Made by a program: the position numbers and the translations under genes | Notes under the pieces: model-generated | Database searches by the model: none | What the model was told of the DNA's origin: nothing | The model's input: only the letters and a program-made list of their open reading frames with translations | Virus record (IMG/VR): IMGVR_UViG_3300029868_000016 | Coordinates: 1-21,198 of that record | Origin: a virus | Length of the DNA: 21,198 nucleotides | Reading direction: 5' to 3' (one strand) | In this document: positions 2 to 19,616 of the stretch, in pieces | Position numbering within the stretch: the stretch's first letter is position 1 | Layout: every line of letters begins with the position of its first letter

Positions 2-169
2 CAGCTGGTCCACCTGGTCGACGTGGCCTCGGCCAGACCGGGCCTGGCGCCGGCGATCGACGGGCGGGAAGGGCGGTCCAGGCGGCCGCCGGCGCGTCCC
101 TACCACCATGAGCCAAGGGGAGCGCAAAAAATCCGTGGATTTCGCCCTGTTTTTTCATTAAGTCATTGA
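2..169 (+). CDS. Possible 3' end of an upstream gene (truncated by window edge)
   Basis: One + strand frame is open from the left edge to a TGA at 167-169. Over its first 100 bases it shows the GC-rich third-position pattern seen in the real genes of this window, with codons such as ctg, gtc, gac, gtg and gcc. The last 20 codons lose this pattern, and the stop lies just beyond a copy of the ATCCACGGAT motif. The translated tail resembles no family I recognise. The minus strand is also open over 1-111, so the strand is not certain. This is a weak call based on composition only. Confidence 0.2.
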   Translation, partial: QLVHLVDVASARPGLAPAIDGREGRSRRPPARPYHHEPRGAQKIRGFRPVFSLSH

Positions 170-495
170 TTATTCAGGAAATACCCTCCACAACTCCCCG
201 CTGTTTTTCCACGGATTCCGCCTCATTTCCCACTGCGCCGCCGCTGGCCCTTTATCTTTCTCTCTCTTATAAATTATTGAAAAGAAAGAAAGAAATAGCG
301 GGGAAAAGAAAGGCGGGGCAGGGCAGGGCATCCACAGGAAATTCCTCAAATCCACGAACTCACCACACATGCACAAGAAAGCATCCACGGATTTTGCGCC
401 CCCCCACAAGCCATTCCGTGGGACCATTTCAGCGTGTAGCCCTTGACTGGCTTGGCCTCGCTCCACCGAATAAGCCATTCCACACATCCACGGGT
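131..495. repeat. Cluster of six ATCCACGGAT-type repeats
   Basis: Copies or near copies of a ten-base motif lie at 131-140 (minus orientation), 207-216, 330-339 (ATCCACAGGA), 350-359 (ATCCACGAAC), 383-392 and 486-495 (ATCCACGGGT). Four of them are followed, after a T-rich gap, by a GCGC or CCGCC tail. A second direct repeat, AAGCCATTCC, occurs at 408-417 and 472-481. Similar clusters serve as binding sites for initiator, partition or DnaA-type proteins at plasmid origins; the core TCCAC resembles half a DnaA box. Which protein binds here cannot be told from the sequence. Confidence 0.55.
251..297. other. AT-rich polypyrimidine/polypurine tract, possible unwinding element
   Basis: A pyrimidine run (TTTCTCTCTCTT) is followed by TATAAATTATT and then a purine run (GAAAAGAAAGAAAGAAA). 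It is the longest AT-rich stretch in an otherwise GC-rich window and sits inside the ATCCACGGAT repeat cluster. The two arms are roughly complementary. Such tracts are common at DNA unwinding elements. A promoter is a possible alternative, since TATAAA could serve as a -10 box, but no good -35 box is visible. Confidence 0.35.
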
Positions 496-1013
496 TGCGC
501 TGCCCCAGGTCCTTCCTTTCCTGGTCTTGCTGTTCCTGGATTCCACTTCCAGAAAGGTGCATCAATGCCGAACGAAAACGCATGAAATCCAGGCAGACCG
601 AATCGGGCCGAAACCCGCGCAGTCCGGGGACCTGCCACAGATGCCCAGATGCACTAAAACAGTGCCCTTTAAAAGCGCCTCGGGCTCCGGGGGGTCTGAA
701 AAATTCGCCAGGGTGAGGCGCAACGGGTCAATTTATTATCAGTTTGATAATATTTGGTTTCGTTTTATTGCAGAAAGGCAACATTACGAGGCCACAGCCG
801 TCTCGGCGCGATATGCGGGCCTCTGAGGCGTTTATTTCCCCCTGGATGATCGCGGGGGCATCCGGACTGATTTAAACGCTCCTGCGCGTCCCTGGTGAAG
901 ATATGGGGCATTGAACAACGGAAGGGCGACAAGGCAGGACCGCGCAGCACCCGTTCAACTGGACAACAGCGGACGTTGCGACCTGGTTGCGCTTGTTCCT
1001 GGGCATGAGCGGT
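496..1013. other. Gene-poor stretch inside the putative origin region
   Basis: Open frames exist on both strands here, but none has codon bias, a ribosome binding site or recognisable protein content, so I call no gene. Visible elements are the AT-rich dyad at 734-752 (listed separately) and an octamer GCAACATT at 778-785 that recurs upstream of O and V. The remainder shows nothing I can interpret. Confidence 0.5.
734..752. promoter_or_regulatory. Perfect AT-rich dyad, candidate operator
   Basis: TATTATC (734-740) and GATAATA (746-752) form a perfect inverted repeat around a five-base centre, AGTTT, in GC-rich surroundings. The size and shape fit an operator for a dimeric repressor or another helix-turn-helix protein. 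No gene starts directly downstream, so its target is unknown. It could instead be a small cruciform within the origin. Confidence 0.4.
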
Positions 1014-1075
1014 TCCGCCGAAGGCGGATTCGGCGGTAGGGGCCGGGCCGGTAGGCCTTGCCCGCTTGCGGGCAA
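1014..1075. other. Two adjacent strong GC hairpins with alternative pairing
   Basis: CCGCCGAA (1015-1022) pairs with TTCGGCGG (1029-1036). A competing smaller stem, TCCGCC (1014-1019) with GGCGGA (1023-1028), uses the same bases. A second perfect stem follows: TTGCCCGC (1058-1065) with GCGGGCAA (1068-1075). Hairpins like these occur at plasmid single-strand initiation sites, in antisense or countertranscript control RNAs and in terminators. There is no T tract after them, so simple terminators are unlikely. Confidence 0.45.
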
Positions 1076-1159
1076 CCCCGTATCCCGCCGAAAGCATGTC
1101 CAGGCGTAGGGAGGTTGTGCATAGTGGGGGGGGGCTGGTCAGCGGCGTAGCCGCGTCTT

Positions 1160-1175: not shown

Positions 1176-1220
1176 CTGTTGTTTCTCCTGGTTCAACGGG
1201 CAGAGAGGCACCCGCATCCC

Positions 1221-1286
1221 TATGGATAAGCCAGGGACATGGTGGATAACGCGCTGCGTTACCCACATGCCCCACGCTTACCCACA
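1221..1286. other. Cluster of four DnaA-box-like sites
   Basis: Four nine-base sites each match the DnaA box TTATCCACA at eight of nine positions: TATGGATAA (1221-1229, minus orientation), GGTGGATAA (1241-1249, minus), TTACCCACA (1259-1267) and TTACCCACA (1278-1286). The middle two are arms of a larger dyad, with GGTGGATAACGC and GCGTTACCCACA matching at 10 of 12 positions around GCT. Four such sites in 66 bases, upstream of AT-rich DNA, iterons and a replication gene, is the usual layout of a plasmid origin. Binding by host DnaA is inferred. Confidence 0.6.
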
Positions 1287-1334
1287 GGGAACCCTTGCGA
1301 CGTTCTGCCTACGGCCTGACGCGCTGCGCTTGCC

Positions 1335-1370
1335 CAATTTTTAAAAAAATTGAAACCCAAAAGTCAAAAG
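1335..1370. other. AT-rich block, candidate origin unwinding element
   Basis: CAATTTTT (1335-1342) and AAAAATTG (1345-1352) form a dyad with a two-base AA centre, followed by the A-rich stretch GAAACCCAAAAGTCAAAAGC. It lies about 50 bases after the last DnaA-like box and before the iterons, where an unwinding element is expected. Confidence 0.45.
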
Positions 1371-1520
1371 CAACCCCGCTTTTCAGGGAGTTTGCAAGGG
1401 CTGTGAAGGTAGATTCGTCAACAACCTAATAGGGCAAATATCGTGCTTGATCGGCTGGAAAGCCAGGAGGGAAGGGGCATAGCGCCGATTTTCTATTACG
1501 CGCCGTGCTGCGCAGTATTA

Positions 1521-1634
1521 CGCACGGCTGTGCGTAGTCGCTCGCACATTGGCGTAAAACCTACGCACGCAACTGGCTGTTCGTCAATTGCGCACGGTGG
1601 TGCGTAGTGGTCAGCACATTGGCGTAAAACCTAC
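1521..1634. repeat. Two 44-base iteron-like direct repeats
   Basis: The segments 1521-1564 and 1591-1634 match at 38 of 44 positions and are spaced 70 bases start to start. Each begins with a small hairpin, CGCAC to GTGCG, continues with GTGCGTAG and ends in GCACATTGGCGTAAAACCTAC's conserved half. The sub-motif GGCGTAA (1551-1557, 1621-1627) recurs inverted as TTACGCC at 1653-1659. CTACGCAC at 1561-1568 is the inverse of GTGCGTAG at 1530-1537. Repeats of this kind just upstream of a rep gene are typical initiator-binding and copy-control sites; RepL is the obvious candidate binder. The sequence CTACGCACGCAAC at 1561-1573 reappears exactly upstream of gene V. Confidence 0.65.
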
Positions 1635-1666
1635 CGTCGCGCATTTGCTGGGTTACGCCTCATATT

Positions 1667-1699
1667 GCGCAACCCATACGCCAATTATGCGCAACCCAT
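1667..1699. repeat. Paired GCGCAACCCAT repeats in the repL promoter region
   Basis: GCGCAACCCAT occurs at 1667-1677 and 1689-1699, 22 bases apart (two helical turns), directly upstream of a possible -10 box TATCAT (1702-1707) for repL. This spacing suggests two protein molecules bound on the same face of the helix, for example for autoregulation of repL. No convincing -35 box is visible, which would fit a promoter that depends on or is controlled by a bound protein. Confidence 0.45.
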
Positions 1700-1738
1700 G
1701 CTATCATAGCGCCATCAACAACCAGGAAGGGAAGCGCC

Positions 1739-2287
1739 ATGTCCAACAACGTCACACTGCCATCGGATCCAGAAAGCACGCCAGAAACGCGCGGCAACAA
1801 GTCCCAGGGCTGGCTGCAAACCGATAAGGCGGCGCACCAGGCCATGTGGAAGCTGGGGATTAAGCATCCGATGGCGCTTTCCGTTTTGCACTTCATGGTC
1901 TCGCAACTCTCACGCGGCACCAATGGCGTGGTCATCAGCGCGGCCGCTATGGCAAAGCGCATGGGCATCGCGCCTCGCACAGTGCAAAGCACCATCACGA
2001 TTTTGCGGGACTGCAAGTTCGTCCAGGTCCTGAAATCGGGCAATGCCAATATCTACATCATCAATTCGCGGGTGGCGTGGCAAGGCGAGCGCGGCATGCG
2101 GCATGCCTCGTTCAATGCTCAAATCCTGGTGGACGAATCGGAACAGCTCCAATCGGTGGATGAACTGATCGAACAGGCGGAAGAAATGCTGCCGGTCCCG
2201 GTCATGCACTTCAACGAAGAAATCCAGCTGGACGCGATCGACCCGCCGACAGGTGGACAGCAGGCCAGCTTGCTACCGGAAGACTAA
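1739..2287 (+). CDS. repL: RepL-family plasmid replication initiator
   Basis: This 182-residue protein looks like the RepL family (first described on Firmicute plasmids, also found on proteobacterial plasmids), whose members bind their own origin and start DNA replication. A helix-turn-helix covers roughly residues 65-93 (VISAAAMAKRMGIAPRTVQS). It is followed by the family's recognisable C-terminal stretch at about 102-136, with YIINSRVAWQGE and SFNAQILVDESEQ. The ATG at 1739 has a good ribosome site, GGAAGGGA at 1725-1732. Iterons and DnaA-like boxes lie directly upstream and a strong terminator directly downstream, so it is a one-gene unit. It is convergent with the phage portal gene. The fold and context support an initiator; a winged-helix transcription regulator is the main alternative. 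Confidence 0.8.
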   Translation: MSNNVTLPSDPESTPETRGNKSQGWLQTDKAAHQAMWKLGIKHPMALSVLHFMVSQLSRGTNGVVISAAAMAKRMGIAPRTVQSTITILRDCKFVQVLKSGNANIYIINSRVAWQGERGMRHASFNAQILVDESEQLQSVDELIEQAEEMLPVPVMHFNEEIQLDAIDPPTGGQQASLLPED

Positions 2288-2297
2288 ACCGACGACG

Positions 2298-2340
2298 AAA
2301 AAAGGGCCGGCACCAGGATTTCCCTGGGCCGGCCCTTTTC
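2298..2340. terminator. Bidirectional rho-independent terminator between repL and Q
   Basis: GGGCCGGC (2304-2311) pairs with GCCGGCCC (2328-2335), and inside it CCAGG (2313-2317) pairs with CCTGG (2323-2327), leaving loop ATTTC and one bulged A. The stem is flanked by six A on the left and four T on the right, so it can end the repL transcript on the + strand and the P-Q transcript on the minus strand. Confidence 0.9.
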
Positions 2341-2355
2341 CTTTTCTCCGTCCCG

Positions 2356-3390
2356 CTATGCCTTCGCAGGCGCCCCAGGAAGCTCATAGGGCGTGAATTG
2401 AACTACATCCATACCCATCCACTCATTGAGCTGTTTAAATCGCTCCTGGAGCGGTTGAATCTCGTTGCGGGCAAATACCTTTGCCGCCGTATCTGCCGCG
2501 CCGAATCCGCCCGTATTGCTCGGCACAACGCCAATGAGCTGGGGCGGTACGCGATGCGCGGCCAGCGTGTCGTCGCGCGTGATGTTTTTGATGTTGAAAA
2601 ATTCATCCTTCGCGGCCACCTCTGACACCGGAATAAGCTGCATCCCGTCTTTCTTTCCGCCGGGCGCGTAGTAAAACAAGTTTTTGAAATTGCCCGGCCC
2701 CTTGCTGTTCTTCAATGCATCGCGGATCGCGTCGACGTCTTCCTGCTTTTGTGCGGCGTCGGTCATGTACAAGATATACCCCGCATGGCTCCCGTTTTCA
2801 TAGTAGCGACGGCGGAACAGCGTCGCCGACTCATTGAGCCAGGCCGAATGCATGGCCGCCAGGTATTGAGGCAGGCCATAAAGCTCCTGGTTGATGTCCG
2901 GCTCCATCAGATGGAACACGGATCCAGGTTCAAACTCGCGCGTAACATCCCATCCATTGGTGAACAGATACCGTTTGAAATCGGTACGCCGGCGTACGTA
3001 TTTTGCCAGCGCCGGTACCAGGGAATGAGGCTTACCCAGGAGGTTGCGTTGCAGCTCCAGGTAGCCATTGCCAAACGTCAGGTAGTCCAACGCCCAGCGG
3101 CTAAATGCATCACGCGACAGCAGAGGGTGGGGGATAAAAGTGGATGCTAGAACATCGCGTTTGAAGAAGATCGCGGACGAATGGTGCGTGCCAGCTCGGA
3201 AAGACTTAGCCAGGCCAGTCCAACTTACTGGCGGTTCAAACCATTCCCCATTGGTCCAGCACTCGGCATAGTCCAGGATATCGGCCCGCTCCATGCTTGA
3301 TAGCGTGTCGTCAAAAGTGAAGGCCTGCGCACGGTCAGGGGAGGCAGGGGAGGGCGCTGGCGAATCGGCCAGGGCTTGAGAGTCAGACAT
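2356..3390 (-). CDS. Q: Portal protein (P2 gpQ-like)
   Basis: At 344 residues it has the length of P2 gpQ. It forms the dodecameric ring at one capsid corner through which DNA is packaged and to which the tail joins. Family features include the segment at about 75-115 with FFKRDVLASTFIPHPLLSRD and YLTFGNGYLE, a PDINQELYGLPQYLAA segment near the middle, and RVPPQLIGVVP with AAKVFARNEIQPL near the C-terminus. The first 25 residues are rich in Ala, Ser and Pro and probably disordered. Its ATG shares one base with the terminase stop (TAATG), so the two are translationally coupled. Its stop lies just before the bidirectional terminator. Confidence 0.95.
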   Translation of the reverse strand: MSDSQALADSPAPSPASPDRAQAFTFDDTLSSMERADILDYAECWTNGEWFEPPVSWTGLAKSFRAGTHHSSAIFFKRDVLASTFIPHPLLSRDAFSRWALDYLTFGNGYLELQRNLLGKPHSLVPALAKYVRRRTDFKRYLFTNGWDVTREFEPGSVFHLMEPDINQELYGLPQYLAAMHSAWLNESATLFRRRYYENGSHAGYILYMTDAAQKQEDVDAIRDALKNSKGPGNFKNLFYYAPGGKKDGMQLIPVSEVAAKDEFFNIKNITRDDTLAAHRVPPQLIGVVPSNTGGFGAADTAAKVFARNEIQPLQERFKQLNEWMGMDVVQFTPYELPGAPAKA

Positions 3391-5153
3391 TATGAAATCT
3401 CCAGGATGGATCTGTTTGCAACCGTCACGCCTTCCAGCGGTTCATTGGCAAGCGCGTGCATCGTTGCCCACGCAAGGTCGGCATGGCCTATTTCCTCGTT
3501 GTAGCTGGATTGGTAGGTCACTTTGCTGCCGCTGGGCGTGATGGATTTTTTAATTGCCAGGAAGGCGGCCACCAGGTCAGACCATCCGGCGTCGAACTCC
3601 AGACGGCCGTTGCTGATGACGGATAGGGCCTTGAGTACCAGCATGGTTTTGACCTCGGGCGAATAGTGGAACCCGCGCACGGACGGAAAGAACTGTTGAA
3701 CGAGCTGGTACACGCCCTGGCCGATACCAGTGGTATCAATGCCGATGTATTCCACCGTGTATTTCTCTGTCAGCTCCTTGATGGCCTGGGCCTGTTCCTC
3801 GAAATTCTTTTTACGGAACTGGATTTTCTCCAGAGTCCGAAACTTGCCACCAGGGACCAACGGCGGCGCCAGCACAACGCATCCTGCCGAGTCGCCCGAC
3901 AAGGCAGGGTCGTACCCGATCCAGACCGGACGGAATCCGTAGGGACGTGGCGCCAGGAATTTGACGTCTTCCCACAGGTCCCAGGTATCGACCATGCATC
4001 GCTGCAATTCGGAAAATGAGAACAGGGAGGCCGTGGCGTCGATAAACAGGCACATGAGCAAGTTATCGAACTCATCCGCGCTGTATTCCTTGCGTAACTG
4101 CTCCAGGTCGAACAGGTTGCAGCCGCCGGCCAGGGCGTCTATGACAGTCAGGATCTGGCGCCACTGGCCGTCCGCGCACAGCCGCCCATCCTTGAGTGCT
4201 GCATGAGTGATATCGACGTCGATATGTTCCGATCGAGGGCGGCCACGGTTGTAGTGCGCGCCGGTCCAGAACGGGTAAGCCTCATGCGTGGTGGTGGAGG
4301 GCGTGGAAATGTACGTCTTGCGCCAGCGGGCATGCATCGACATGCCGGACGCAACCTTGTTCAGCTCTTTGAATTTCGGGACCCAAAAATATTCATCGAA
4401 ATACAGGTTGCCGTGGTAACTCTGCGCCGTCCTGGAGTTTGTTCCCAGGAAGTAGAGCGCCGAATCGTTCGGCAAGATGATCGGCGAGCCGGTAATTTCC
4501 ACATCGGCCGCATCCTTTGCGAATGCCGCAATGTATTCCTTGAAGACGTGCGCCTGCGCTTTGCTGGCTGAAAGGAATATCTGATTGTTCTGTGGCTTGG
4601 CTAGAGCTTCCACCAGTGCTTCGCGGGCAAAGTACCAGGTAGCCCCTACCTGACGCGATTTCAACAGATTGCGGATGCGCTGGTCCCGGTTCTCATACCA
4701 GACCCGCTGATAGTCGAAAATCGTTTCCTGGAACGCTTCCTGGATGCGCTCGGCCTGTTCCGGGCTGAACTCGTTTTTCGTTCCCTTCCTGGGTCCCTTG
4801 TTGCGCTCTGCAAGATTGGGATTCAAGTCTGACGGCTTGCCCGTCTCCCCATATCGGCGGATCCGCGCAACCTTGTCCATCAAGCGGCCCAGGGCGTCAA
4901 TTTCCGCGTAGTCGTTATTCCCCTTTTTTTCCTTGTCAATCAACAGCATCAAGCGCACCTCAAGGCGGCTTTCTACGCGGTCAATAGGGGATGCCTTGTC
5001 CCATTCGTCGCGCTGCTTCCAGGATTCGATTGTCGCGCGCGGAATGTCCAACTCACGCGCGATTGCGGAAATTCGATAGCCCTTGAAATACAGGCCCTGC
5101 GCGTACTTACGGGGGTCGGAATCAAGAGAATGAGGAGTGGCAATTTCAGTCAT
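3390..5153 (-). CDS. P: Terminase large subunit, ATPase/nuclease (P2 gpP-like)
   Basis: This packaging motor of 587 residues (P2 gpP has 590) moves DNA into the prohead through the Q portal. An N-terminal helix-turn-helix (about 24-47, GYRISAIARELDIPRATIES) probably contacts DNA near cos. The ATPase has a Walker A-like loop KSRQVGAT at 165-172, of the divergent terminase type, and a Walker B LYFDE at 250-254. The C-terminal RNase H-fold region has acidic residues in IGYDPALSGD (Asp415), GIDTTG (Asp473) and HADLAWA (Asp559), fitting a two-metal nuclease triad. In P2 cos cleavage is attributed to gpM. It is transcribed with Q away from the O-T operon, from the divergent region 5154-5318. No strong ribosome site precedes its ATG. 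Confidence 0.95.
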   Translation of the reverse strand: MTEIATPHSLDSDPRKYAQGLYFKGYRISAIARELDIPRATIESWKQRDEWDKASPIDRVESRLEVRLMLLIDKEKKGNNDYAEIDALGRLMDKVARIRRYGETGKPSDLNPNLAERNKGPRKGTKNEFSPEQAERIQEAFQETIFDYQRVWYENRDQRIRNLLKSRQVGATWYFAREALVEALAKPQNNQIFLSASKAQAHVFKEYIAAFAKDAADVEITGSPIILPNDSALYFLGTNSRTAQSYHGNLYFDEYFWVPKFKELNKVASGMSMHARWRKTYISTPSTTTHEAYPFWTGAHYNRGRPRSEHIDVDITHAALKDGRLCADGQWRQILTVIDALAGGCNLFDLEQLRKEYSADEFDNLLMCLFIDATASLFSFSELQRCMVDTWDLWEDVKFLAPRPYGFRPVWIGYDPALSGDSAGCVVLAPPLVPGGKFRTLEKIQFRKKNFEEQAQAIKELTEKYTVEYIGIDTTGIGQGVYQLVQQFFPSVRGFHYSPEVKTMLVLKALSVISNGRLEFDAGWSDLVAAFLAIKKSITPSGSKVTYQSSYNEEIGHADLAWATMHALANEPLEGVTVANRSILEIS

Positions 5154-5318: not shown

Positions 5319-6350
5319 ATGATGAAGAATTTGAAAATCAAACTGCTGTCTTTCGGTGCGGCCCTGATTGGCCTTGCACTGTCGAACGTCGCCAATGCGT
5401 CCCCCTTGCTGTTCGCCGCCCCGATCGCTGGCGGCGGTAGTCTGCTGGGCGCCTCTCTGCTGGGTAGCCTGGGCATTGGCCTGGGCATGGCCGGCATCGT
5501 CCCCGCCGGCGGTGGCGGCACCGAGAAGCATGCCAAATCCAAATGGTTCCGCGTGGCCCTGGAAGGCGCAACATCGGACGGCCGCGAAATCTCCAAAGAA
5601 TGGATTCAGCAGATGGCCGACAGCTACAACCGCGATCTTTACGGCGCCCGCATCAACATGGAACACATCCGAGGCTATACGCCTGACAGCTCATTCCGTG
5701 CATTCGGCGACGTGCTGGCCGTGGAAGCGCGCGACGTCGACGGCAAGCTGGGCCTGTATGCGCAAATCGACCCTACCGACGAACTGGTGGCGATGACGAA
5801 GGCCCGCCAGAAGATCTACACGTCCATCGAGGTCAGCCCCAACTTTGCCAAGACCAATGGCGCGTATCTGGTCGGCCTGGCCGTCACAGACAGCCCCGCC
5901 AGCCTGGGAACCGAAGTTCTCTCTTTCTCGGCTCAACATCCTGAATTCTTCGCCGGCCGCAAGCAGCACAAGGACAACCTCTTTACCGCTGCCATGGAAA
6001 CCGTGATCGAGTTCGAAGCGGCGGCGCCGTCACATGACAGCTTCTTCACCCGCATTTTCACCAGCCTGCGCGGCAACAAGGAAAAAGGCGAGGCTACCGC
6101 CGCCCGCGTGGGTGAAGTGGAGCAAGCGGTTGAGGAACTTGCGACATTTGCCAAAGAACAGGCTGACGGCAACGTGACCCGCGATCAGCAGTACGCCGCG
6201 CTCCAGAAGACGGTCGCGGAACTGTCCGCCTCCGTGCAGGCCAGCACTACCAATTTCAACCAGCTCAAGCAGGAATTGAGCAACACCACCGCCACCAAGC
6301 CGCGCGACCCTGCACCCGGCGGCAATGGCGGCCACGTAACCGACTGCTGA
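5319..6350 (+). CDS. O: Capsid scaffold and maturation protease (P2 gpO-like) with signal-like N-terminal extension
   Basis: From about residue 74 (SKWFRVALEG) this 343-residue protein follows P2 gpO, which scaffolds the prohead and cleaves itself and the capsid protein. The serine-protease triad is intact: Asp87 in SDGRE, His116 in NMEHIRG and Ser169 in YTSIEV, matching Asp19, His48 and Ser107 of P2. The C-terminal third is a helical scaffold region. The first 68 or so residues have no P2 counterpart. They begin like a signal peptide (KNLKIK, a hydrophobic core, then ANA before Ser28) and continue with a glycine-rich hydrophobic stretch to about residue 67. ATG 5319 or 5322 is supported by GGGG at 5313-5316. 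A start at Met57 (5487) would give a P2-like 287 residues but has no ribosome site. Confidence 0.9.
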   Translation: MMKNLKIKLLSFGAALIGLALSNVANASPLLFAAPIAGGGSLLGASLLGSLGIGLGMAGIVPAGGGGTEKHAKSKWFRVALEGATSDGREISKEWIQQMADSYNRDLYGARINMEHIRGYTPDSSFRAFGDVLAVEARDVDGKLGLYAQIDPTDELVAMTKARQKIYTSIEVSPNFAKTNGAYLVGLAVTDSPASLGTEVLSFSAQHPEFFAGRKQHKDNLFTAAMETVIEFEAAAPSHDSFFTRIFTSLRGNKEKGEATAARVGEVEQAVEELATFAKEQADGNVTRDQQYAALQKTVAELSASVQASTTNFNQLKQELSNTTATKPRDPAPGGNGGHVTDC

Positions 6351-6413: not shown

Positions 6414-7424
6414 ATGGATAACCATACCCGCGTGGCTTACAACGCCCTGCTGAAGCAAATCGCCACCCTGAATGGCGTGACCGATGTTTCGAAGAAATTC
6501 AACGTCGCGCCTGCCGTTGAACAAAAAATGGAAGCCAAGATCCAGGCGTCCAGCGAATTCCTGAAACTCATCAACATCGCGCCGGTGAAGGGCCAGGAAG
6601 GCGAAAAGCTGGGCCTGGGCATGACGCAGACCATCGCCAGTACCACCGATACCACGACCAAGGACCGCGAAACCGTGGACCCGACTGGCATCGACGGCAC
6701 CCGCTACCGCTGCGAACAGACCAACTCGGACACGCATCTGCGCTATGCCAAGCTGGATGCATGGGCCTTGTTGCCCAACTTCCAGACCCTGTTCCGCGAT
6801 TCGATCCTGCAGCGCATCGCACTTGACCGCATCCTGATCGGCTTCAACGGCACCAGCCGCGCCGCCACGTCCGATCGCGCCGCCAACCCGCTGCTCCAGG
6901 ACGTGAACATCGGCTGGCTGCAATCCTATCGCGCCAACGCTGCCCAGCGCGTCATGTCGTCCGGCAAGACCGCCGGCAAGATCAAGGTGGGCAAGGGCGC
7001 CGATTGCGATTACCTGAGCCTGGATGCCCTGGTGTTCGATCTGGTATCGAGCATGATTGACCCATGGCATCAAGGCCGCACTGACCTGGTCTGCGTCGTC
7101 GGCCGCGAGCTGCTGCACGACAAGTACTTCCCCCTGGTGAACCAGGACCAGCCCAACACCGAAAAGCTGGCGGCTGATCTCATCGTCAGCCAGAAGCGCA
7201 TCGGCAACGTGCCTGCCGTCCAGGTTCCGGGCTTCCCGGCTAATGGCCTGATCGTCACGCCGCTGTCCAACCTGTCGATCTACTGGCAGCAGGGTTCCCG
7301 CCGTCGCAGCATCGAAGAAAACTCCAAGCGTGATCGCGTGGAGACCTACGATTCGACCAATGAAGCCTATGTGGTCGAAGATTTCGGCGCCGGCGCCGTC
7401 GCTGAAAAAATCGAGGTCGTGTAA
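6414..7424 (+). CDS. N: Major capsid protein (P2 gpN-like)
   Basis: At 336 residues (P2 gpN has 357), this is the shell protein of the icosahedral head, of the HK97 fold, and is expected to be trimmed at its N-terminus by the O protease. The opening segment with ALLKQIATLNGVTDVSKKF and the FLKLINIAPVKGQEGEKLGLG stretch are typical of P2-family capsids, as are DALVFDLVSS and the VVGRELLHDKYFPL segment. A purine-rich ribosome site (AGAGAGAGAAAG) precedes the ATG. The 63-base gap from O contains only a weak GGCGG/CCGCC stem at 6371-6386. Its TAA shares a base with the ATG of M. Confidence 0.95.
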   Translation: MDNHTRVAYNALLKQIATLNGVTDVSKKFNVAPAVEQKMEAKIQASSEFLKLINIAPVKGQEGEKLGLGMTQTIASTTDTTTKDRETVDPTGIDGTRYRCEQTNSDTHLRYAKLDAWALLPNFQTLFRDSILQRIALDRILIGFNGTSRAATSDRAANPLLQDVNIGWLQSYRANAAQRVMSSGKTAGKIKVGKGADCDYLSLDALVFDLVSSMIDPWHQGRTDLVCVVGRELLHDKYFPLVNQDQPNTEKLAADLIVSQKRIGNVPAVQVPGFPANGLIVTPLSNLSIYWQQGSRRRSIEENSKRDRVETYDSTNEAYVVEDFGAGAVAEKIEVV

Positions 7425-17020: not shown

Positions 17021-17488
17021 ATGCAAATCTTTCACTACAGCCATGAAACGGGCGAGCTGCTGTCCACCGACACGCCCCCCGGCTTTGTCAATCCACGCCA
17101 TGCGCTGGCCTATCTGGACGCAAACGGCATCCCGCCGGTGGACTACCGCGCCGGAGCCTGGCGCGAAGTTGCCGACTATCGCGGCCTCTACTGGCGCACC
17201 GACACGGGCAAGCAAGAGGAATTCACCCGCCTGGGCGTCACGCCCCAGGAAGCGGGCTTGACCGACCAGGAGCCGCCGAAGTTCGGCAAATGGAACGGGA
17301 AGGCCTGGGAGGTGGACCAAGCCGCCGCGAAGGCGGCCCACAACGCTGCTATCGCTGCGCAAATCGCTGCCATCGAGCAGCAGGAACAGCCAGCAGCACA
17401 ACGCACCTTTGCCCTGGACGGCGACGCCTCTGCGTTGCGGGCTATCCAGGAAAAGATTGACGCGCTCCAAGCGCAGTTCCAGGAGTAA
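17021..17488 (+). CDS. G: Tail fibre assembly chaperone (P2 gpG-like position)
   Basis: The 155-residue protein from ATG 17021 follows the fibre gene by four bases, where fibre chaperones lie in P2 and Mu. The N-terminal half (IFHYSHETGELLSTDTP, AYLDANGIPPVDYRAG) and the middle GLTDQEPPKFGKWNGKAWEVD resemble short tail-fibre assembly proteins; the C-terminal half is an Ala/Gln-rich helix likely to form a coiled coil. Its role would be to help H trimerise. An in-frame ATG at 16940 inside H is not favoured. Family assignment is by pattern and context. Confidence 0.75.
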   Translation: MQIFHYSHETGELLSTDTPPGFVNPRHALAYLDANGIPPVDYRAGAWREVADYRGLYWRTDTGKQEEFTRLGVTPQEAGLTDQEPPKFGKWNGKAWEVDQAAAKAAHNAAIAAQIAAIEQQEQPAAQRTFALDGDASALRAIQEKIDALQAQFQE

Positions 17489-17493
17489 CGCAC

Positions 17494-18111
17494 ATGAGCC
17501 AATTGGCAGACAGCATCATCACCGGCCCCCTGGTATTCCAGACCGTCCCGACCGAGAAAGCCGCCGCGCTGATCTATGTTCCCGGCCTGGGCTGGATGGA
17601 GTGGGCAGAAGTCACCGGTACGGGCGCATTCCAGGGCTACCGCACCCTTCGCTGCGGCGCGCTGGAGTTTGGCACCACGACCGCGCCGCGCTCCTATGAA
17701 GCCGACCTGGTAGGGGGCTTGGGGTCCAAGACCAGCCAGGCGTCCATATGGGCATGGGCGCAGCAGAACGGCCATGCCGTGGCCGCCGCTGCCTGGTCCA
17801 CAAAGGTTTTCAAGTTTGCTGATGTGGATGCAAACACCTTCCGTTTCCCGGATCTGCGCGATGTCTTTGCGCGCTTCGCTGGCACGGACGCCGACTCCGG
17901 CCAGGCGGTGGCCTTGGGCTCCTACAAGGCAGACACCCTGAAGGCCCACGCCCACGGCACCAACTATGGCGTCATCAGCCAGGGCGGCTATGGCACCAAT
18001 CAGGGCGGTACGTTCGCATCGGCCGGATACCCAGGGACCACAACCACCACGACCGGGTCGGCCGAAACTGCCCCGAAACATACCGCCTTTATGCCTCGCA
18101 TCCATATCTGA
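17494..18111 (+). CDS. Second, short tail fibre tip protein
   Basis: The 205-residue product has no N-terminal baseplate-attachment domain. The middle (RFPDLRDVFARFAGTDADSGQAVALGSYKAD) and the TLKAHAHGTNYG stretch are typical of fibre tips with a collar-like fold, with Gly/Thr-rich loops and a closing ETAPKHTAFMPRIHI that parallels the end of H. AGGAG at 17481-17485 is a strong ribosome site. It could be a separate tip subunit mounted on H, or an alternative receptor-binding module. The gene lies directly after G and is followed by its own chaperone-like gene. Confidence 0.75.
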   Translation: MSQLADSIITGPLVFQTVPTEKAAALIYVPGLGWMEWAEVTGTGAFQGYRTLRCGALEFGTTTAPRSYEADLVGGLGSKTSQASIWAWAQQNGHAVAAAAWSTKVFKFADVDANTFRFPDLRDVFARFAGTDADSGQAVALGSYKADTLKAHAHGTNYGVISQGGYGTNQGGTFASAGYPGTTTTTTGSAETAPKHTAFMPRIHI

Positions 18112-18443: not shown

Positions 18444-19616
18444 ATGCCAACCGATTACCACCACGGAGTACGGGTCCAGGAGCTGAACGACGGCACCCGC
18501 CCCATTCGCACCGTCGCCAGCGCTGTCCTGGGCCTGATCGCCACCGGCAAGGACGCCGACCCCGAAACCTTCCCGCTGAATCGCCCGGTTCTCGTTACTG
18601 ACGTGATCGGCAAGGCCGGCAAGGCCGGCGACACCGGCACCCTGGCGCGCGCGCTGGAGGCCATTGGCTCGCAGTCCAAGCCCGCTGCCGTCATCGTGCG
18701 CGTGGCCGAAGGCGAAACCGATGCGGAAACCACCTCCAATGTGATCGGCACCACGACCGCGGGCGGCCAATATACCGGCATGAAAGCCCTGTTGACCGCC
18801 AAGAGCGTCCTGGGCGTTACCCCGCGCATCCTGGGCGCCCCTGGTCTGGATACCCAGGCCGTTACCGCGTCCTTTACCACCATCGCACAGAAGCTGCGCG
18901 CCTTCCTCTATGCCAGCGCCTACGGCTGCGAAACCAAGGAAGCCGTCAGCGCCTTCCGCCAGCAATTCAGCGCCCGCGAACTCATGCTGATCTGGCCGGA
19001 CTTCCAATCCTGGAACACCACCACCAGCGCCACCGAGAACGCACCCACGATCGCGCACGCAATGGGCCTGCGCGCCAAGATCGACAACGAGACGGGATGG
19101 CAAAAGACCCTCTCCAACGTGGGCCTGAACGGCGTGACCGGCATTTCCAAGGATGTCTTTTTCGACCTCCAGGACCCGGACACCGACGCCGGCTACCTGA
19201 ACGCGGCGGACGTTACCACCCTGATCCGCCAGGACGGCTACCGCTTCTGGGGTTCGCGCACTTGCTCGGATGACCCGCTGTTCGCCTTCGAGAACTACAC
19301 CCGAACCGCGCAAATCATCGCCGACACGATGGCCGAAGCGCATATGTGGGCCGTGGACAAGGATATGCACCCGTCCCTGATGCGCGACATTGTGGAAGGC
19401 GTCAACGCCAAATTCCGCCAGCTCATCAACGGCGGCTACCTCCTGGGCGGTGAGGCCTGGTTCGACCCGGACGCCAACGACAAGGACACGCTCAAGGCCG
19501 GTAAGTCCTTCATCGACTACGACTACACCCCGGTACCGCCGCTGGAAAACCTGAATTTCCGCCAGCGCATCACCGACCGCTACCTGGTCGATTTCGCCGC
19601 CCGCGTAAACGGCTAA
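18444..19616 (+). CDS. FI: Contractile tail sheath protein (P2 FI-like)
   Basis: This sheath protein of 390 residues (P2 FI has 396) polymerises around the tube and contracts during DNA injection. It shows the family's opening MPTDYHHGVRVQELNDGTRPI, then VASAVLGLIATG, the MKALLTAKSVLGVTPRILGAPG segment, and the C-terminal FDPDANDKDTLKAGKSFIDYDYTPVPPLENL region with ITDRYLVDF. AGGAGA at 18430-18435 gives a good ribosome site. The 24-base gap before it is too short for an obvious separate late promoter, although P2 has one upstream of FI, so here the gene may be read through from V. Confidence 0.97.
   Translation: MPTDYHHGVRVQELNDGTRPIRTVASAVLGLIATGKDADPETFPLNRPVLVTDVIGKAGKAGDTGTLARALEAIGSQSKPAAVIVRVAEGETDAETTSNVIGTTTAGGQYTGMKALLTAKSVLGVTPRILGAPGLDTQAVTASFTTIAQKLRAFLYASAYGCETKEAVSAFRQQFSARELMLIWPDFQSWNTTTSATENAPTIAHAMGLRAKIDNETGWQKTLSNVGLNGVTGISKDVFFDLQDPDTDAGYLNAADVTTLIRQDGYRFWGSRTCSDDPLFAFENYTRTAQIIADTMAEAHMWAVDKDMHPSLMRDIVEGVNAKFRQLINGGYLLGGEAWFDPDANDKDTLKAGKSFIDYDYTPVPPLENLNFRQRITDRYLVDFAARVNG

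Follow-up and report, generated by a model that had tools for sequence, protein, structure and literature searches.

The interval to the left of the packaging genes is interpreted with high confidence as the replicon region of an Oxalobacteraceae phage-plasmid that is P2-like and of the KS14 type; it contains a RepL initiator and an origin with iterons and DnaA-like boxes, along with candidates for cos and for a partition site. The window analysed here is the entire IMG/VR record IMGVR_UViG_3300029868_000016, a stretch of 21,198 bp classed as a linear fragment. It opens with approximately 1.7 kb devoid of an obvious gene, which leads into repL, a hairpin and the P2-type genes Q, P, O and N, while lysis, baseplate and tail genes follow rightward in P2 order (Table 1). 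The window ends before parA and shows no circular closure. P2-like phages are usually regarded as integrating. The phage represented here, a phage of soil bacteria, is very likely maintained in its host as a circular plasmid. This reading is drawn by analogy with its close relatives, which have partition genes and a start site for plasmid replication in place of an integration enzyme. In this P2-like lineage, found in Burkholderia and Oxalobacteraceae, the integration route would have been replaced by a plasmid replicon seated at a fixed place.

Table 1. Features of the window, with coordinates, strand and supporting details.
Feature	Position	Strand	Remarks
Candidate partition site (parS-like)	118-500		TCCACGG-type motif, 5 copies; putative function
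Candidate cos core (weak)	683-709		FLC5/KS14 core alignment score within shuffle range; near the offset of the GGAGGCGNGGAGGGG-type cores of six relatives
59-bp block conserved in eight relatives	1034-1092		75-90% identity in G001, G002, G004, G005, G006, G007, G009 and G010
Origin arm, partly palindromic, with four DnaA-like boxes	1205-1340		boxes at 1221-1286
Invariant origin motif TAATAGGGCAAA	1427-1438	+	identical in 11 of 11 aligned members
Palindromic iterons	1497-1634		proposed RepL binding sites
RepL-family replication initiator	1739-2287	+	182 aa; PF05732
Bidirectional terminator-like hairpin between repL and portal gene	2300-2339		-33.5 kcal/mol on one strand, -35.4 on the other
P2-type portal protein (Q)	2356-3390	-	
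P2-type terminase ATPase subunit (P)	3390-5153	-	66% identical to FLC5, 65% to KS14
P2-type capsid scaffold protease (O)	5319-6350	+	
P2-type major capsid protein (N)	6414-7424	+	
P2-type tail sheath (FI)	18444-19616	+	

RepL proteins 73-81% identical to that of the window were found by tblastn in 10 virus records and two isolate genomes, and the nine close virus relatives examined below have a RepL 74-83% identical; one of the virus records is identical in sequence to one of the isolate contigs. The two isolate relatives are separate contigs of 34.7 and 35.1 kb. The search for partition and integration genes that the earlier note had proposed was carried out in these relatives, where ParA is encoded by all eight that cover the region and where neither a tyrosine integrase nor P2 gpA was found in any of the nine close virus relatives. 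ParA and a 120-aa partner lie on the far side of the non-coding stretch wherever this part has been sequenced. The gene for the 120-aa protein (for example, L027 10322-10684, minus strand) sits directly upstream of ParA in all covering Oxalobacteraceae-type relatives; the protein has no family match and is a candidate centromere-binding partner. Four relatives are circular assemblies, ending in an exact repeat of 127 bp as is typical of circular contigs when the assembler uses that word length, and a fifth has its parA split between the two contig ends; replicating phage DNA could be another source of such circular assemblies. One circular record corresponds to a 34,740-bp contig of the Duganella rivi FT55W isolate, in which tail gene D is followed by a serine recombinase, a CI-type repressor, an Ogr/Delta zinc finger and a Toprim protein, and then by ParA, the non-coding region and RepL, an order much like that of KS14. 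Together, the missing integrase and gpA, the ParA genes and the four circular assemblies of the relatives support the earlier proposal of a phage-plasmid, to which the window itself lends no support.

The window belongs beside Burkholderia phage KS14 (NC_015273, Kisquattuordecimvirus), whose prophage was identified as a plasmid by miniprep and digest in 2010 (PMC3091744). The earlier suggestion of an uncommon P2-like phage-plasmid lineage is supported as to the type of element, but the lineage was already known through KS14 (PMC3091744) and is more than a presumed rarity. Likewise, extrachromosomal maintenance in the lysogen was demonstrated for KS14, and for the RepL group we infer it. KS14 shares the P2 structural genes and a replication gene beside the portal gene with the window, and it shares ParA, a CI-type repressor, a primase-like protein, a small serine recombinase and the absence of both tyrosine integrase and gpA with the relatives of the window. 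The plasmid initiator adjoining the portal gene is RepL in the window and a Rep_3 protein (RepB) in KS14, in which no homologue of the small gene adjoining parA was found. At the DNA level, KS14 and the window are approximately 67% identical over about half of the window, and by genome-wide identity the window represents a related but separate group outside the genus Kisquattuordecimvirus. Enterobacteria phage P2 itself resembles the window in its packaging, capsid and tail modules, in their order and in the placement of cos left of the portal gene; it possesses gpA and an integrase and integrates, whereas the relatives of the window have neither.

It is improbable that RepL serves lytic replication only, as a replacement for P2 gpA, with the prophage persisting by other means such as an unseen integrase or pseudolysogeny. 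The absence of gpA does create a need for some lytic initiator, and the plasmid state is proven for KS14 only; however, the integrating relatives KS5 and KL3 are likewise without a gpA homologue and have a 931-aa CHC2 zinc-finger primase-like protein in common with KS14 (PMC3091744), so that gpA-free lytic replication seemingly needs no RepL. Moreover, tyrosine integrase is absent from all RepL and RepB phages, and ParA is present in most of them.

The RepL-like initiator recognised in the earlier note is borne out by a profile search against PF05732, in which its product scores 25.8 bits (E 8.5e-6), above the cut-off of 20.3, and the same profile is matched by all 11 aligned family members (the window and 10 relatives). 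Codon changes in repL between relatives fall mostly at the third position (74-88, versus 13-21 at position 2), which identifies it as a real gene. RepL homologues are found on 198 plasmid records; the homologue of the 3.1-kb plasmid pAerIII is its sole recognisable initiator, and that of the IncP-9 plasmid pWW0 (NC_003350.1) matches at E 2e-10. Proteobacterial RepL plasmids (pMOS6, pYAN-1, pAerIII and IncP-9 pWW0) resemble the window in having a PF05732-type initiator of approximately 175-190 aa with upstream repeats, and differ from it in the sequences of those repeats and in carrying no phage genes. In Paracoccus pMOS6, a RepL-family REP module with upstream iterons was reported to be sufficient for replication (PMC3832669), and the pBBR1 rep-oriV has been described as a distant relative of IncP-9 (PMC2885752). 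Some of the points that weigh against the favoured reading concern the protein: the profile score is modest, solved-structure searches with RepL and with a RepL profile gave no significant match, and the AlphaFold model is of low confidence (pLDDT 50.7). The predicted order of helices and strands is compatible with a winged helix. NCBIfam holds no model for RepL, for the small ParA partner or for the third initiator candidate described below.

Upstream of repL, a 48-nt direct repeat (1517-1564 and 1587-1634, 85% identical) contains two near-perfect palindromes of 18 bp (TRCGCAC-N5-TGCGTA; 1519-1536 and 1589-1606), and a weaker palindrome is present at 1497-1514. The iteron motif has seven matches in the window, compared with a mean of 0.98 after dinucleotide shuffling, and none of 100 shuffles reaches seven. 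The motif TRCGCAC is present in 3 to 8 copies within the 350 bp preceding repL in all 11 members, where simple shuffles predict approximately 0.1, and this enrichment is absent from FLC5, KS14 and FLC10. Palindromic repeats as such precede repL in 11 of 11 phages and, with other sequences, on small RepL plasmids. Sites within one mismatch of the DnaA-like sequence TTATCCACA number four in the whole window, an ordinary count, and their clustering is unusual: all four fall within the 66 bp at 1221-1286, and four boxes within 70 bp arose in none of 300 Markov simulations. Both the iteron-like repeats and the DnaA-like boxes that the earlier note had placed before repL thus withstand statistical examination.

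G002 has the DnaA-box block (1205-1340) at 90% identity, FLC5 has half of it at 84%, and in a Collimonas arenae plasmid DNA 83% identical to it precedes repL. Since the RepL of this plasmid is only 34% identical to that of the window, conservation or exchange has preserved the block better than the initiator. Beyond the window, G002, the Collimonas plasmid and, in part, FLC5, the RepL relatives have at most a single box within 700 bp of repL, and the four-box arrangement is not universal among them. A promoter scan upstream of repL found none. On the other side of repL, the hairpin at the position of the formerly proposed shared terminator separates the convergent RepL and portal genes, and the portal and terminase genes lying beyond it are of P2 type, as had been claimed.

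That the repL product is a winged-helix transcription regulator and no initiator is very unlikely. Such a role could accommodate the modest PF05732 score, the weak matches of helix-turn-helix families to some members and the many homologues annotated merely as helix-turn-helix proteins; it accords poorly with the iterons and DnaA-box block upstream of the gene, with the standing of its homologues as the only recognisable initiator on small plasmids, with the sufficiency of the pMOS6 module (PMC3832669), and with the use of Rep_3 initiators by sister phages in the same slot beside the portal gene.

Farther left, all five copies of the scanned parS-like motif set in the window fall at 133-494, and the segment 127-299 is conserved with KS14, FLC5 and FLC10. 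The iterated core left of cos is phage-specific, reading CCACGG in the window, CCTCGG in the Burkholderia phages, CCATGG in a Massilia element and CCCCGG in Duganella; such retention of position with divergence of sequence is consistent with a binding site that coevolves with its protein. For the iterated motif at 118-500 the likeliest role is that of a putative partition site. In FLC5, mapping placed cos between parA and repL, at position 1 of the record (PMC7815583), in agreement with the earlier remark that cos lies left of Q. Cores of the GGAGGCGNGGAGGGG type occur in six relatives at an offset similar to that of FLC5, and a search for the P2 cos sequence allowing up to five mismatches found nothing convincing.

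In the proposed scheme, RepL would bind the palindromic iterons that precede repL and, together with host DnaA at the box cluster, may open the origin, so that the repressed prophage would replicate as a circular plasmid of approximately 34.6 kb. ParA and its small partner, encoded just past the left end of the fragment, would partition this plasmid, probably through the iterated motif at 118-500, and upon induction the phage would package from cos, located between par and ori. The scheme draws on the observed RepL membership, the origin anatomy, and the gene content and circular assembly of the relatives. The lineage also provides a RepL replicon that is small, packaged in nature and equipped with a conserved origin.

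The P2-type portal, terminase, scaffold, capsid and tail genes, arranged in P2 order, place the window within the Peduoviridae. The chance that the region reflects a defective element, a satellite or the artificial joining of plasmid and phage sequence during assembly is negligible: the window is indeed an incomplete linear fragment, but the same junction recurs in 11 other distinct records from different samples, including two isolate genomes, and in phage FLC5, and the P2 structural complement is complete and collinear. Among these genes, near those for tail completion and the baseplate, a DNA methylase gene (PF01555; 11799-12665, minus strand) opposes the direction of the structural operon, and DNA resembling it occupies a collinear position in RepL relatives.

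The Burkholderia phage FLC5 (NC_055722) carries a RepL 40% identical to that of the window in the same slot, along with half of the DnaA-box block; it differs in lacking the TRCGCAC iterons, in the annotation of its RepL as hypothetical and in its host family. The slot holds Rep_3 in KS14 (gp37) and FLC10 (gp2), and RepL in the window group and FLC5 (ORF44). FLC5 matches KS14 and FLC10 at 90-92% identity toward the portal gene and at 81-91% toward par, and its 1.1-kb initiator and origin cassette (30164-31259) has no match to either phage. This likeness on both flanks of an unmatched cassette indicates replicon exchange at a single fixed site adjoining cos. Of 80 P2-like portal loci surveyed, four have RepL in the slot and eight have Rep_3, and three more have a further protein family there. 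The proteins of this family are approximately 200 aa in length and encoded on the minus strand (L073:7021-7668, L057:7331-7939 and L066:7010-7615); the two that were scanned have no Pfam match above cut-off, the L057 protein being weakly RepL-like (13.2 bits), and they are candidates for a third initiator family. Additionally, a different ParA type adjoins the RepL cassette at L097 and the Rep_3 cassette at L102, which suggests that partition genes move independently of the initiator cassette.

Among 47 records tested, those with an initiator in the slot have neither gpA (0 of 21) nor a tyrosine integrase match (0 of 21), compared with 17 and 8 of the 26 records without one (one integrase match being below the family cut-off); many of the 47 are fragments, and these counts are indicative only. 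We tentatively propose, as a possibility with somewhat less than even odds, that KS14-type phages have a dedicated replicon-exchange site beside cos. Initiator-plus-origin cassettes (Rep_3, RepL or the third type) would be swapped there, and partition cassettes separately, with little change to the rest of the phage, perhaps allowing the coexistence of related prophages in one cell through evasion of plasmid incompatibility. Exchange of the replicon between close relatives makes a change of incompatibility group by cassette exchange testable in phage-plasmids. The RepL replicon variant and the exchange at this slot seem to be new, as no description was found in a literature search of incomplete coverage.

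Other P2-like elements combine phage and plasmid features differently. The Arsenophonus nasoniae plasmid paPv10 (NZ_CP123514, L176, 33,818 bp) is circular and encodes a RepA-type initiator and an AAA-family ATPase besides P2-like phage genes; unlike the window group, it retains a gpA-like replication endonuclease and has its initiator elsewhere in the genome, and it is a separate P2-like phage-plasmid, probably of separate origin. Eleven P2-like records (L068, L071, L078, L081, L088, L100, L101, L112, L118, L120 and L127) encode gpA as well as an oppositely oriented ParA and gave no tyrosine integrase match; no terminal overlaps were found at their ends, and they are either proviruses cut off short of the integrase or members of a second P2-like phage-plasmid lineage. 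Outside the P2-like phages, the phage-plasmid paPv11 of Arsenophonus nasoniae (L175, 31,588 bp) has a RepL-like gene (17173-17694) among its tail genes and a second initiation protein beside the terminase.
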